Source: Desulfoscipio geothermicus DSM 3669 (GTDB taxonomy: Bacteria > Bacillota > Desulfotomaculia > Desulfotomaculales > Desulfallaceae). From it: DNA of 52,766 bases. The position numbers and the translations under genes are program-made. Where the stretch lies: positions 1 to 52,766 of the forward strand of contig NZ_FOYM01000026.1 of NCBI RefSeq assembly GCF_900115975.1, in the 5' to 3' direction. The notes beneath the pieces are model-generated. The model ran no database searches. It saw only the letters and a list, made by a program, of their open reading frames with translations, and was not told the DNA's origin. Of the stretch, positions 21,989 to 45,123 are shown in pieces. Position 1 is the first letter of the stretch. Every line of letters starts with the position of its first letter.

Positions 21989-22534
21989 TTACTGAAGCGC
22001 TTTTTCCCAGGCCAACCTGTAGACCAGCAAAACTTCGTCGCTGAAAAGCACAAACCTTATTTCAGTAGGGATAATATTTTGGGCAGCAAATTCCTGTACT
22101 GAGGCAACGGCAATCCCTGCCGCCTGTTCAATGGGAAACCGGTATGCCCCGGTGCTGATGGAAGGGAAAGAGATGCTCCGAATACCTTTTTCTTTCGCCA
22201 GCAGCAGACTGTTTTTGTATGCGTTGCGCAATAAATCCGCTTCCCCGTGGCGGCCGCCGTGCCATACCGGTCCCACGGTATGAATAACATAGCGGGCCGG
22301 TAAATTCCCCCCGGTAGTAATAACGGCCTCGCCGGTAGGGCAACCTCCCTGCCTGGCCCTGATCTGCTTGCACTCTTCCAGTATCTTCGGGCCACCAGCC
22401 CGGTGAATAGCGCCATCTACGCCACCGCCGCCAAGCAGGCTCGAATTGGCGGCATTTACTATAGCCTCTGTATCTTGTTTGGTGATATCGTCACGTTTTA
22501 ACAATATCCGAGTATTATTAACCCAGAATTCCAC
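21989..22534 (-). CDS. Macro-domain protein, probable (O-acetyl-)ADP-ribose hydrolase
   Basis: This 181-residue single macro domain starts at GTG 22534 behind GGAGGTG. Typical motifs are [55 protein letters not shown] and [15 protein letters not shown]. Proteins of this YmdB-like subtype bind ADP-ribose and hydrolyse O-acetyl-ADP-ribose made by sirtuins. A sirtuin gene is in this window (32041), but not in the same operon. Confidence 0.93.
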
Positions 22535-22573: not shown

Positions 22574-22603
22574 TTTACAGTAATAATAAACTTTACATAA
22601 TAT
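22574..22603 (+). promoter_or_regulatory. Candidate sigma-A promoter upstream of the small interrupted gene
   Basis: TTTACA (22574-22579) and TAATAT (22598-22603) are separated by 18 nt, about 40 nt before the ATG at 22644. Confidence 0.35.
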
Positions 22604-22643
22604 TATGATAACGCCTGAAAATAATGGAAAGGATGTGCTTTTT

Positions 22644-22856
22644 ATGGAACGTAAAGGGGTGCTGTATAACCCCAAAACGGGTGAAGTATTTATCAACAAC
22701 CACTTTAATATCCCGCTGCTCATGAAGGAATGGGCCTGACTGTGTAACACCAAGCGGGCCCAAGGCTGGGTCTTTTACCCCGTTAATGACGTAAACACAG
22801 ATTTGGTACAAATTAACGGAAAATGGTATGTACCGGAGGAGCGCCGAAAAAAATAG
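22644..22856 (+). CDS. Small gene with an in-frame TGA (nonsense or possible selenocysteine)
   Basis: ATG 22644 opens a 31-codon frame starting MERKGVLYNPKTGEVFINN and ending KEWA before TGA (22737-22739). The same frame continues 38 codons to TAG 22854 with protein-like sequence (GWVFYPVNDVNTDLVQINGK). Both halves look like one 70-residue protein. Explanations are a nonsense mutation, a sequencing error (TGG to TGA), or selenocysteine; the genome does use Sec in fdhA. A weak hairpin (GGGCCC 22756-22761 with GGGTCT 22768-22773, loop AAGGCT) starts 16 nt after TGA. I do not recognise the family. AAAGGA precedes the ATG by a rather long 11 nt. Confidence 0.4.
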
Positions 22857-22895
22857 TCCCTGCAAAGGTGTCCGTGCAGGGACTATTTTTTTCGG
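22844..22895. terminator. Bidirectional terminator shared by two convergent small genes
   Basis: A perfect 21-bp stem (22844-22864 with 22875-22895) around a 10-nt loop includes seven A and seven T residues. The TAG stops of both convergent genes (22854-22856 plus; 22885-22883 minus) lie inside the stem. Confidence 0.85.
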
Positions 22896-23053
22896 TCAAA
22901 TAACTTCCTAGTTGCCACTGCTAATAAAATAGCCACTATCACCCCACCAGCCATACTTAAATTTTCGGAAAGGCCAGTTTCAGTGACCAGTAGATAATAC
23001 GTACCCACCGACGCAAATACCGTCAGCATCATGGGCAGAAATGTTTTACTCAT
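22883..23053 (-). CDS. Small membrane protein (56 residues)
   Basis: The frame starts at ATG 23053-23051 and shares one base with the thrC stop (TGATG), so it is translationally coupled to thrC. The product starts MSKTFLPMMLTVFASVGTYY. Two hydrophobic stretches (about 5-20 and 30-47) with a short polar link and a basic C-terminus (RKLFDRKK) suggest a two-span membrane protein. It ends inside the terminator hairpin. Function unknown. Confidence 0.6.
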   Translation of the reverse strand: MSKTFLPMMLTVFASVGTYYLLVTETGLSENLSMAGGVIVAILLAVATRKLFDRKK

Positions 23054-24564
23054 CAATTACAATCACCGGCACGTAAAAAATCTATAACTGCCTCCCGCAT
23101 ATTGTCCCGGTCCACTACCACCTTATGCCGCACCGGACGCCGGTCCAGGGCGCGCAATCCCGGCGGGACCGGCAAGTCGCTGAAATCAGCCAGCATTTGT
23201 AGCAGGGCGAATTCATCCTTATCATTTGTATTATCTTCGCCGAGCAGTGCCCGCGTTACGCTGGCGTTAAATTTAAACGGGCTGGCGGTGGATAGTACTA
23301 TGGTCAGAAATTTATCTCCGGTACTCTCCCGGTATTTGCGGTAGACATGTAAACCTACCGCCGTATGGGTGTCCACCACGTATTTATATTGATTATAATT
23401 TTGTTTAATGGAGACCAAGGTTTCCTCATCGCTGGCAAAGTCGGACCAGAACAATTCTTGTATCATGTCTCTGGTAGTACTGTCCACCTCGTACCGTCCG
23501 TGCTCCTTTAAATCGGCCATCCACTGCCGAACCCTTGGGGCATCATGCCCGGTCAACTCAAAGAGCAGACGTTCCAGATTGCTGGAAATCAGGATATCCA
23601 TGGACGGGGAAATAGTCCGTTTAAAAGCCCGGTTGCGGTCATAGATACCGGTGCGAATGAAATCTGTGAGCACATTGTTATCATTGGCGGCGCAGATTAG
23701 CCGATTCACGGGCAGGCCCATTTGCCGGGCATAAAAACCGGCCAATATATTGCCGAAATTGCCTGTGGGCACCACGAAATTAACGGGTTCGCCGACCTTT
23801 AACCGGCCCCTTTTCAGTAAATCAGCGTAAGCAGAAAAATAGTATACTATCTGGGGCACCAAACGGCCCCAGTTTATTGAATTGGCAGAGGAAAATTTAT
23901 AACCGTATTTCAACGCTGTTTCGGCCATACCGGGATCACCAAAAATTTCTTTAACCCCGCTCTGGGTGTCATCAAAATTACCCCGCACGGCCACAACGCC
24001 CACATTTTTTCCTTCCTGGGTGACCATCTGCAATCTCTGAACCTCACTGACCCCTTCTTCAGGGTAAAACACCACAATAGCGGTTCGGGGTACGTCTTTA
24101 AAGCCCTCCAGCGCGGCTTTGCCGGTATCACCAGAAGTGGCTACAAGAATAAGGATGCCCGCGTCTTCTCCGGTTTTTCCCATAGACTGTACTAAAAAAT
24201 GAGGTAGTATTTGCAGCGCCATGTCTTTAAAGGCACAGGTGGGACCGTGCCACAGTTCCAGCACGCTTAACCCTTCGTCCAGATCCACCAGAGGGGCCAC
24301 GTCCGGGTGATCAAAACTGATTTCATTATAGGCCCCGTTAATGCACCGGGCAAGTTCCTCCCCGGTAAAATCAGTTAAAAACGATTGTAATATTTTAGCG
24401 GCACGGTCCTGGTAGCCAAGACCTGCCATCGCCGATATATCTGCCATGGAAAAGGTCACTTTTTCAGTGGGAACAAACAATCCTCCATCGGGGGCAATAC
24501 CCAGTTTAATAGCGCCTGCGGATGGTAGGGGTTGGTAATTTCCTCTGGTGCTTTCATAAAACAT
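23053..24564 (-). CDS. thrC: Threonine synthase
   Basis: This 503-residue PLP enzyme converts O-phosphohomoserine to threonine. Visible: the N-terminus MFYESTRGNYQPLPSAGAIKLGIAPDGGLFVP, the PLP lysine in HGPTCAFKDMALQ, the phosphate-binding SGDTGKAA, and VPTGNFGNILAGFYARQMGLP. Length matches the long (about 500-residue) class. The start at 24564 is preceded by GGAGGAATT. No other threonine-pathway gene is nearby; a 56-residue membrane protein overlaps its stop. Confidence 0.96.
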   Translation of the reverse strand: MFYESTRGNYQPLPSAGAIKLGIAPDGGLFVPTEKVTFSMADISAMAGLGYQDRAAKILQSFLTDFTGEELARCINGAYNEISFDHPDVAPLVDLDEGLSVLELWHGPTCAFKDMALQILPHFLVQSMGKTGEDAGILILVATSGDTGKAALEGFKDVPRTAIVVFYPEEGVSEVQRLQMVTQEGKNVGVVAVRGNFDDTQSGVKEIFGDPGMAETALKYGYKFSSANSINWGRLVPQIVYYFSAYADLLKRGRLKVGEPVNFVVPTGNFGNILAGFYARQMGLPVNRLICAANDNNVLTDFIRTGIYDRNRAFKRTISPSMDILISSNLERLLFELTGHDAPRVRQWMADLKEHGRYEVDSTTRDMIQELFWSDFASDEETLVSIKQNYNQYKYVVDTHTAVGLHVYRKYRESTGDKFLTIVLSTASPFKFNASVTRALLGEDNTNDKDEFALLQMLADFSDLPVPPGLRALDRRPVRHKVVVDRDNMREAVIDFLRAGDCN

Positions 24565-42435: not shown

Positions 42436-45123
42436 GTGGCAGAAGTTACATTAACCATCAACGGACTGCAAGTGACCGTGCCCAAGGGAACCACCGTACT
42501 GGACGCTGCCCGGCAGGCCGGCCTGTTCATTCCCACTTTTTGCCACGACCCGGAACTGACCAGGTTCGGTGCCTGTCGCATGTGCGTGGTGGAAATCCCG
42601 GGTATGCGTAATTTGCCGGCTTCCTGCGTCACCGAGGCCACCGAGGGCATGGTGGTGCATACCGATTCGCCGGCAGTCATTGAAGCCAGGAAAACCATCC
42701 TGGAGTTGATGCTGGCCAATCACCCCATGGACTGCCTGACCTGCGGCAAAAACGGGGACTGCCGCCTGCAGGATTACGCCTACATGTATGGCGTGAAAAC
42801 CGAACCCTTCGGGGGCGAAAAACATAATTATCCCCTGGAAGACGATAACCCGTTCATTGTCAGGGATATGAACAAATGCATACTGTGCGGCAAGTGCGTG
42901 CGCGCCTGCGCAGAAATTCAGGGTAAGAGTATCGTGGACTTCGCCTACCGCGGCTTTGACGCCAAGATCACTCCGGCCATGGACGTGCCTCTCTCCGAAT
43001 CGGAGTGCGTGTTTTGCGGTAACTGCGTGGCCGTGTGCCCGGTGGGTGCTTTGCAGGAAAAAGGCCTGCGCTCGGCTGCCAGAACCTGGGAAGTGCAAAA
43101 GGTCAAAACCACCTGTCCATACTGCGGTACAGGCTGCAACTTTGAATTAAACGTCAAGGACAACCAAGTGGTGGGCGTCACTTCCTGCGACGGCGACGTC
43201 AACGGCCGGGCCCTTTGTGTAAAAGGGCGTTTCGGTTACGGTTTTATCCATCATCCCGACCGTTTGACCACACCGCTGATTAAAAAGAACGGAGAGTTTG
43301 TAGAAGCCACCTGGGACGAAGCCATTACTCTGGTGGCCCAAAAACTGGGTGACATAAAGGATAAATATGGCCCGGACGCGCTTGCGGTGCTCAGTTCCGC
43401 ACGCTGCACCAATGAAGAAAACTACCTGATGCAAAAATTCACCCGCGCGGTGCTCGGTACCAACAGTATCGACCACTGCGCTCGTCTCTGACACGCCCCC
43501 ACCGTCGCCGGTCTGGCGACTGCATTCGGCAGCGGGGCAATGACCAACAGCATTGGGGAAATTGCCGGGGCCGATTTTATCCTGGCCATCGGCACAAATA
43601 CTACGGAGTCCCACCCCGTGATCAGCCTGCAAGCAAAAAAAGCCCAGCGCAACGGGGCTACACTGGTGGTGGCGGATCCGCGGCGCACTGAAATGGCTGA
43701 ACTGGCCAATACCCATCTGCAATTGAAATCCGGCTCAGATATCGCTCTACTCAACGCCATGGCCAATGTAATCATAAGCGAAGAGTTATGGAATAAAGAA
43801 TTTGTAGCCAATAGAACTGAAGACTTCGAGTCCCTGAAAGAAACGGTGGCCAAGTATACGCCGGAGTATGCCGAACAAATCACCGGCATTCCGGCTGATA
43901 CCATCAAAACAGTGGCCCGGGGTTACGCCAAAGCTAACAACGCCACTATTCTGTACACCATGGGCGTCACCCAGCATATCTGCGGTACCCATAACGTATT
44001 TGCCGTAGCCAACCTGGCCATGCTGTGCGGGCATATCGGCAAGGAAAACAGCGGCGTTAACCCGTTGCGGGGACAAAATAACGTCCAGGGCGCCTGCGAC
44101 ATGGGCGCGCTGCCCAATGTATATACCGGATACCAGGCTGTCACCGTTGATGATAACCGGACCAAGTTTTCCAAAGCCTGGAACGTGGCCGAATTACCGG
44201 CCCAACCGGGCCTGACCGTGGGCGAAATGATGGAAGGCGCGGCGGATGGCAAGGTCAAGGGTATGTACATCATGGGTGAAAACCCCGTATTGTCGGATCC
44301 GGACGCCGACCACGTAGTACATGCACTGGAAAAATTGGAATTTTTAGTAGTGCAGGACATTTTTCTCACCGAAACTGCGGCCCTGGCCGACGTGGTATTG
44401 CCGGCGGCCAGCTTCGCGGAAAAGGATGGCACCTTCAGCAACACCGAACGACGGGTGCAACGGGTGCGCAAAGCCATCGACCCGGTGGGGAACGCCCGGG
44501 CGGACTGGGAAATCATTTGCAATATCGCCACGGCCATGGGCTATCCCATGCAATATGCCTCGGCTTCGAACATCTTTGATGAAATCGCAAGCCTTACACC
44601 TTCCTACGCCGGTATATCATACGCACGCCTGGAGTTGGGAGGTATCCAGTGGCCCTGTCCTGATGCGGACCATCCCGGAACACCGTACCTGCACAAGGAC
44701 AAGTTCGTGCGGGGCCTGGGTAAATTCAACCCGGTGGAATACATCCCGCCGGCAGAACTGCCCGACCAGGATTACCCGCTGGTGCTGAGCACCGGACGCC
44801 GGCACTTCCATTACCATACCGGCACCATGACCCAACGTACCGGTGCCCTGGAAGTGCATTACGGTGCCGAGCACCTGGAAATCAACCCGGCCGATGCAGC
44901 CGCCCTGAATGTGGCCGAGGGCGATACAGTGCTGATGAAATCCCGACGCGGACAGGTGGAAGTAACCGCCCGCATTACCGATGTGGTACCCCGGGGCATG
45001 GTATTTACCTCTTTCCACTTCCCGGAAGTGGCCATCAACAAGTTGACCAACCCGGCAAGGGACCCCGTGGCCAAGATACCGGAACTGAAGGTTTGCGCGG
45101 TAAAAGTAATAACAGTAAGTTGA
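42436..45123 (+). CDS. fdhA: Selenocysteine formate dehydrogenase, catalytic subunit
   Basis: The gene covers 895 codons if the TGA at 43489-43491 is read as selenocysteine (residue 352): the frame continues without a break to 45123. The context DHCARL-U-HAPTVAGL is the classic FdhA active site. N-terminal order: [2Fe-2S], HPMDCLTCGKNGDC, CILCGKCVRAC, CVFCGNCVAVCP, then CPYCGTGCNFEL of the Mo4Fe4S domain, then the molybdopterin domains (EIAGADFILAIGTNTTESHP, MGVTQHICGTHNVF, RGQNNVQGACDMGALP, GENPVLSDPD) and the C-terminal MopB_CT domain (STGRRHFHYHTGTMTQRT). A start at GTG 42436 follows GGGAGGG. It oxidises formate or reduces CO2; with NuoEF-like partners the carriers are NAD(H) and probably ferredoxin. 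Confidence 0.95.
43489..43520 (+). promoter_or_regulatory. Selenocysteine UGA codon and bSECIS hairpin in fdhA
   Basis: TGA at 43489-43491 is followed 12 nt later by GTCGCC (43504-43509), loop GGTCT (43510-43514) and GGCGAC (43515-43520), a perfect 6-bp stem. The distance and the G-rich loop start fit bacterial SECIS elements recognised by SelB. Confidence 0.85.

Follow-up and report, generated by a model that had tools for sequence, protein, structure and literature searches.

A conserved in-frame UGA marks a probable small selenoprotein family, found without a cysteine form, in Desulfoscipio geothermicus and its relatives

A 70-codon gene of Desulfoscipio geothermicus DSM 3669, the reading frame of which is crossed by a TGA at codon 32, is very probably genuine, forming a transcription unit by itself and encoding a small selenoprotein, with selenocysteine (Sec) inserted at the UGA. 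The gene lies in a 52,766-nucleotide stretch of DNA (hereafter, the window; Table 1) and consists of 31 codons, the TGA, 38 further codons and a TAG. Its translation is a protein of 70 residues, MERKGVLYNPKTGEVFINNHFNIPLLMKEWA-U-LCNTKRAQGWVFYPVNDVNTDLVQINGKWYVPEERRKK-stop. Judging from sequence comparisons, the protein belongs to an unnamed family in which the UGA is conserved, coding sequence extends on both sides of it, a SECIS-type hairpin follows and the host genomes carry the Sec machinery; we infer that Sec is really inserted at codon 32. It is quite possible, if somewhat short of probable, that the family is Sec-obligate, with a mini-fold of its own, Sec as the sole conserved chalcogen and no Cys version of any kind. 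The decoding mechanism is known; what is new is a protein family for which no Cys form was found.

Table 1 Features of the candidate selenoprotein gene and its surroundings in the window.
Feature	Position	Strand	Basis or remark
Probable Sec-containing gene, 70 residues	22644..22856	+	TAG at 22854-22856; relatives align over nearly the full length on both sides of the TGA
In-frame TGA, predicted Sec residue 32	22737..22739	+	Same aligned codon in 16/16 copies
Putative SECIS hairpin, arms 22756-22762 and 22767-22773, apical loop AGGC 22763-22766	22756..22773	+	Covariation, synonymous-recoding control, bacterial SECIS rules
Shine-Dalgarno-like GGAAAGGA, 10 nt 5' of the ATG	22626..22633	+	Direct reading of the sequence
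Promoter-like TTTACA-16-CATAAT	22574..22601	+	Consensus match only
Strong hairpin that overlaps the TAG, with a T run after it	22850..22889	+	-23.7 kcal/mol, z -6.85
Divergent neighbour, presumably macro-domain-like (named from sequence)	21989..22534	-	Present beside the gene in 6/6 copies of family f1
Convergent neighbour, small hydrophobic protein, probably membrane	22883..23056	-	
Presumed threonine-synthase-like gene	23053..24564	-	

The gene stands alone between the divergent macro-domain-like gene and the convergent genes. Four promoter-like pairs were found in the region, compared with 1.3 (sd 1.3) expected. The hairpin overlapping the TAG, together with the T run, is likely to be an intrinsic terminator; it is absent from the list produced by a pattern scan, and its loop is unusual. 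Because this terminator-like hairpin overlaps the TAG, the transcript plausibly spans the whole 70-codon frame, including both halves.

The earlier note had read the frame as continuing past the TGA, and relatives bear this out. A search of 100 related genomes, performed with X at the stop, identified 15 relatives in 13 other genomes, each with an internal TGA. A second search profile carried Cys at the TGA position and would therefore favour Cys forms. Searched in this way, the 113 genomes covered from the class, which we take to be Desulfotomaculum-like, again yielded these 16 copies and no Cys form; the 14 carrier genomes, which include Desulfotruncus alcoholivorax and D. arcticus, represent 5 families and 9 genera. 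At a loosened limit, the weakest true copy in these 113 genomes had an E value of 2.6e-24, and the best noise 0.05. Cys forms were also lacking in 398 drawn phylum genomes, which returned only the window, one known carrier and one weak unrelated match, and in a motif scan of a one-genome-per-species collection, where two matches outside Desulfotruncus were unrelated. No relative of the 70-residue protein was found in viral contigs or in plasmids. Judging from its patchy occurrence (14 of the 113 class genomes), the gene is dispensable. The gene tree of the copies, the deep branching of which is weak, does not distinguish vertical descent from transfer.

Weaker matches were discarded upon inspection. 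The phylum match in genome G140 (20.8 bits, no stop) covers 36 profile positions only, and the plus-strand frames at this locus are unlike the family by eye. Ten loci representing weak class matches (E 0.05 to 2) were inspected, nine of which were readable (L061 was too short), and most turned out to be short unrelated frames. Among the weak class matches, L059 and L065 feature a short GGWAFET...IKLDG.WYV string within larger proteins. Matches located inside a 600-residue Paenibacillus protein (L037) and a 424-residue archaeal protein (L038) were judged to be due to chance.

The TGA occupies one aligned codon in all 16 copies, none of which features Cys, Trp or Arg at that site. On either side of the TGA, dN was lower than dS in all 12 pairs compared, some of which show saturated dS. 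Any gene with an in-frame TGA, when viewed in a single genome, could be a nonsense pseudogene or the result of a TGG-to-TGA sequencing error, as the earlier note had allowed; this explanation retains next to no probability, as the TGA is common to copies from 14 genomes, TGG is found at the site in no copy, purifying selection persists after the TGA, and one contaminating sequence could not account for copies with identities of 33-70% to the window protein. Homologues with Cys at residue 32, expected in the same note to support a small selenoprotein, were not found, and neither were the Trp or Arg homologues expected to weaken it. The selenoprotein option draws its support instead from the TGA in every relative, which is stronger evidence than Cys homologues against both pseudogene and sequencing error. 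The 16 genes contain 44 TGG and 16 TGA codons, the latter at codon 32 only, and ordinary predicted genes ending in TGA occur in 13 of the 14 carrier genomes (there are none in the G009 stretch). The confinement of TGA to codon 32 and its use as an ordinary stop thus argue against a general code in which UGA specifies Trp.

A 44-residue ORF starting at an ATG terminates at the TGA, as would be expected if the region contained two separate short genes, the first ending there. This arrangement is extremely unlikely, as no copy has one half only, and the downstream half is present in the same frame in 16/16 copies, with no homologue ending at the TGA. Moreover, the two halves make one confident, compact AlphaFold2 model, and it is the whole gene that is missing from eight relatives. 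In six f1 genomes, the gene is located between the macro-domain-like gene and (where called) the small hydrophobic gene beside threonine synthase. Ten f1 genomes without the gene were searched, and the threonine synthase locus was found in nine. At eight of these loci the flanking genes are separated by about 19-92 nt (as measured from tblastn ends), with no significant remnant; at the ninth (G002), neither neighbour was found. Such clean absence in eight relatives suggests that the gene comes and goes as one unit. Where the gene is missing (L074-L081), the genes for the macro-domain-like protein, the small hydrophobic protein and threonine synthase follow one another in tandem on a single strand, separated by short gaps.

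The hairpin that the earlier note had placed 16 nt downstream of the TGA is exactly the conserved stem-loop. In the window, it consists of a 7-bp stem and a 4-nt loop, and its position is conserved. Its stability is unremarkable when the hairpin is compared alone with dinucleotide shuffles (z 0.60), and equally good folding is seen in 14.5% of the synonymous recodings of this one copy. Since the single hairpin is not exceptional, the significance of the SECIS rests on the comparison of the whole set. The covariation score of the set was 0.320, compared with 0.148 (sd 0.030) in shuffles; none of 500 shuffles scored as high, and all slid registers scored lower. RNAalifold recovered the same stem (-9.31 kcal/mol), and compensatory changes affect two pairs, both partners of which are altered in 5 and 6 sequences. 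All 16 copies have C as the third base of codon 39, though the Ala and Ser codons found there could vary; the pairing partner of this C is the final G of the codon for the invariant Trp. The summed MFE was -171.4, versus -111.6 (sd 11.2) for synonymous recodings based on the local codon usage of each genome; none of 1000 recodings was as low or matched the summed stem length, with the qualification that the recoding and shuffle controls ignore shared ancestry. Bacterial SECIS rules, as set out in the accessible part of PMC13188914, hold for the window and for 12/16 copies, compared with 68 of the 1515 TGA triplets of the window. The strict rules fail in four copies, namely L006, in which a single C-A mismatch leaves no stem that satisfies them, and L009, L015 and L016 (stems of -4.6 to -5.9 kcal/mol). 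Of the 15 copies with a hit, 13 have a loop starting 23 nt past the TGA, and in the other two the distance is 22 or 24 nt; GG is present in the loop in all 16 copies.

Programmed read-through with an ordinary amino acid (Trp, Arg or Gln), or a UGA switch between short and long products, either of them without Sec, would likewise conserve the TGA and both halves. Hairpins after a stop can stimulate read-through. We consider this very unlikely, as the hairpin lies at the spacing typical of bacterial SECIS elements and has an invariant GG, selA and selB are present in every carrier, and no copy features a sense codon at the site. Both selA and selB scored above the curated cut-off in 14/14 carriers. 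tRNA-Sec scored above the cut-off in 95 of the 100 relatives and in 13 of the 14 carriers (71 bits in the window genome, G000), with a weak best match in G068 (E 7.4e-8). As nearly the whole order has the Sec machinery, its presence in the carriers is necessary but not discriminating. In G004, G006, G007, G009, G013, G027 and G039, the gene and selAB share a contig, at a distance of about 11-60 kb, and, with the exception of G039, selC is within about 100 kb of the gene; this linkage is loose and probably reflects inherited chromosome order.

The window itself contains a second in-frame TGA, located in the UHAP motif of an fdhA-like gene at 43489 (+), with 354 open residues before it and 544 after. 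The downstream SECIS-like stem (GTCGCC/GGCGAC, loop GGTCT) conforms to the bacterial SECIS rules. The gene is an ordinary Sec formate dehydrogenase, in agreement with the earlier note, which had taken fdhA as a sign that this genome decodes UGA as Sec. The fdhA and the 70-residue genes are alike in having a TGA followed, at a short distance, by a stem-loop with GG starting the loop. In contrast, FdhA, of which Cys forms exist, is a large molybdo/tungsto-enzyme, and the 70-residue protein is an orphan. Under the preferred reading, Sec insertion, the ribosome would reach the UGA at codon 32, the hairpin 16 nt downstream would recruit SelB with GTP and Sec-tRNA, and translation would continue to the TAG once Sec had been inserted.

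Residues G5, L7, P24, U32, G41, W42, L54 and W61 are invariant in the family. The U-x-C arrangement pointed out in the earlier note does exist in the window but does not hold throughout the family, as it occurs in 11/16 copies; four copies lack any Cys, and one has a Cys only far off in the tail. AlphaFold2 models place Sec as the first residue of helix 32-39 in the window protein (pLDDT 92.2, pTM 0.78) and of helix 33-40 in the distant paralogue L016 (pLDDT 82.9, pTM 0.64); in both models, Sec begins the longest helix, between short strands. Reactive thiols and selenols are usually found at the N-terminus of a helix, and Sec occupies the same place in the thioredoxin fold. The position of Sec at the helix start leads us to propose a redox role, so that the function assigned rests on one structural feature. 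The inconstancy of U-x-C and the existence of Cys-less copies favour a redox role relying on an external thiol. We tentatively suggest that the protein is possibly a small cytosolic selenol redox protein, able to use an external thiol. Where U-x-C is present, Sec could form a selenenylsulfide with the Cys of this motif. In Cys-less copies, reduction of the oxidised selenol would depend on an external thiol, as it does in 1-Cys peroxiredoxins.

Foldseek revealed no significant fold match for the modelled protein (best E 2.8 in PDB and 0.54 in BFVD), and the best Z in a VIA fold comparison was 2.2. No thioredoxin-fold entry was found among the Foldseek matches listed, an absence compatible with that fold. 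The protein may adopt a mini-fold of its own, for which the lack of a significant match falls short of proof. None of the 16 members matched Pfam at E 0.1, and no fitting model was found in NCBIfam (June 2026), which gave one chance match, to one member, at E 0.1. The Pfam/NCBIfam scan covered the NF, TIGR and PF entries of a 119-family review table. In the accessible part of that table (PMC13188914), no entry fits by motif or name. No family resembling the 70-residue selenoprotein was found in the published literature as far as its text was accessible, which does not prove that none has been published.

The main alternative to a redox function is the handling of a metal or of selenium. The protein would still be a selenoprotein, with Sec acting as a metal ligand, as a means of carrying or storing selenium, or as a sensor of selenium status. 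The unconserved U-x-C and the four Cys-less copies, unlike dithiol oxidoreductases, fit a role of this kind, as do the lack of a redox partner gene conserved alongside and the CxxCxxCC (PF03692) neighbours in G019, G044 and G027. There is, however, no conserved His/Cys cluster beyond Sec that could form a metal site, and we regard a non-redox role as unlikely.

No conserved partner gene was found, as families other than f1 have different neighbours. PF03692 genes are immediate neighbours of the family member in G019 and G044 (two in a row); in G027, one is located about 2.3 kb away (loci L047, L049 and L048 have PF03692 neighbours). This neighbourhood is only a weak lead, because each carrier has 3-8 copies of the PF03692 family. 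In the second copies of G027 and G039 (L051 and L053), GKDUQHDK replaces U-x-C, and there is no Cys at all. A gene for a protein of about 90 residues ends about 32 nt upstream of these copies, and two larger genes, one presumably helicase-like, follow in the same order in both genomes. This gene group is a possible operon and, as such, the best functional clue for the subfamily.

Known selenoproteins resemble the family in part. In 2005, grdA was the only one of ten known families detected without known Cys homologues, according to the accessible text of PMC1088965. The window family is, like GrdA, a bacterial selenoprotein without known Cys homologues in the sense of that text, but PF04723, the GrdA accession according to the accessible part of PMC13188914, matches none of the 16 members. 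The CxxU motif is also absent from the window family, unlike GrdA. Thioredoxin-like UxC (Sec.2) and UxxC families, as they appear in the same part of PMC13188914, carry a Cys two or three residues after Sec, as here. They show no sequence match to the window family, 5/16 copies of which lack a Cys two residues after Sec. A ryanodine-receptor repeat (PDB 5c30) shares a short string around QGW-x-Y/F. This candidate was rejected, as the similarity covers 18-19 residues only, each stretch is insignificant (i-Evalue 3.5 and 12), no Pfam RyR domain was detected in any of the 16 members at E 0.1, and none appears in the Foldseek list.

Nearly all selenoproteins have Cys homologues, and Cys/Sec pairs are a standard search strategy, as stated in the accessible part of PMC13188914. 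According to the portion of PMC12013277 available, the recent predictor deep-Sep retains a candidate only when a known Sec homologue, or a minimum of two Cys homologues, is present in its top ten hits; a new Sec-only family would be discarded by this rule. The 70-residue protein is probably a real protein missed by current gene finders. If so, bacterial selenoprotein families may be systematically undercounted, with Sec-only families constituting a blind spot of gene finders. The combination of a TGA in all copies, coding on both sides and a covarying SECIS provides a simple test that could reveal other families. If the family is Sec-obligate, its chemistry would need selenium itself, for instance in selenol catalysis with an external thiol, or in selenium carriage or sensing. 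It would then join GrdA as one of very few families in bacteria in which Cys does not replace Sec. A protein of 70 residues without a Cys form would then offer a small, expressible system in which to study why some chemistry needs selenium.
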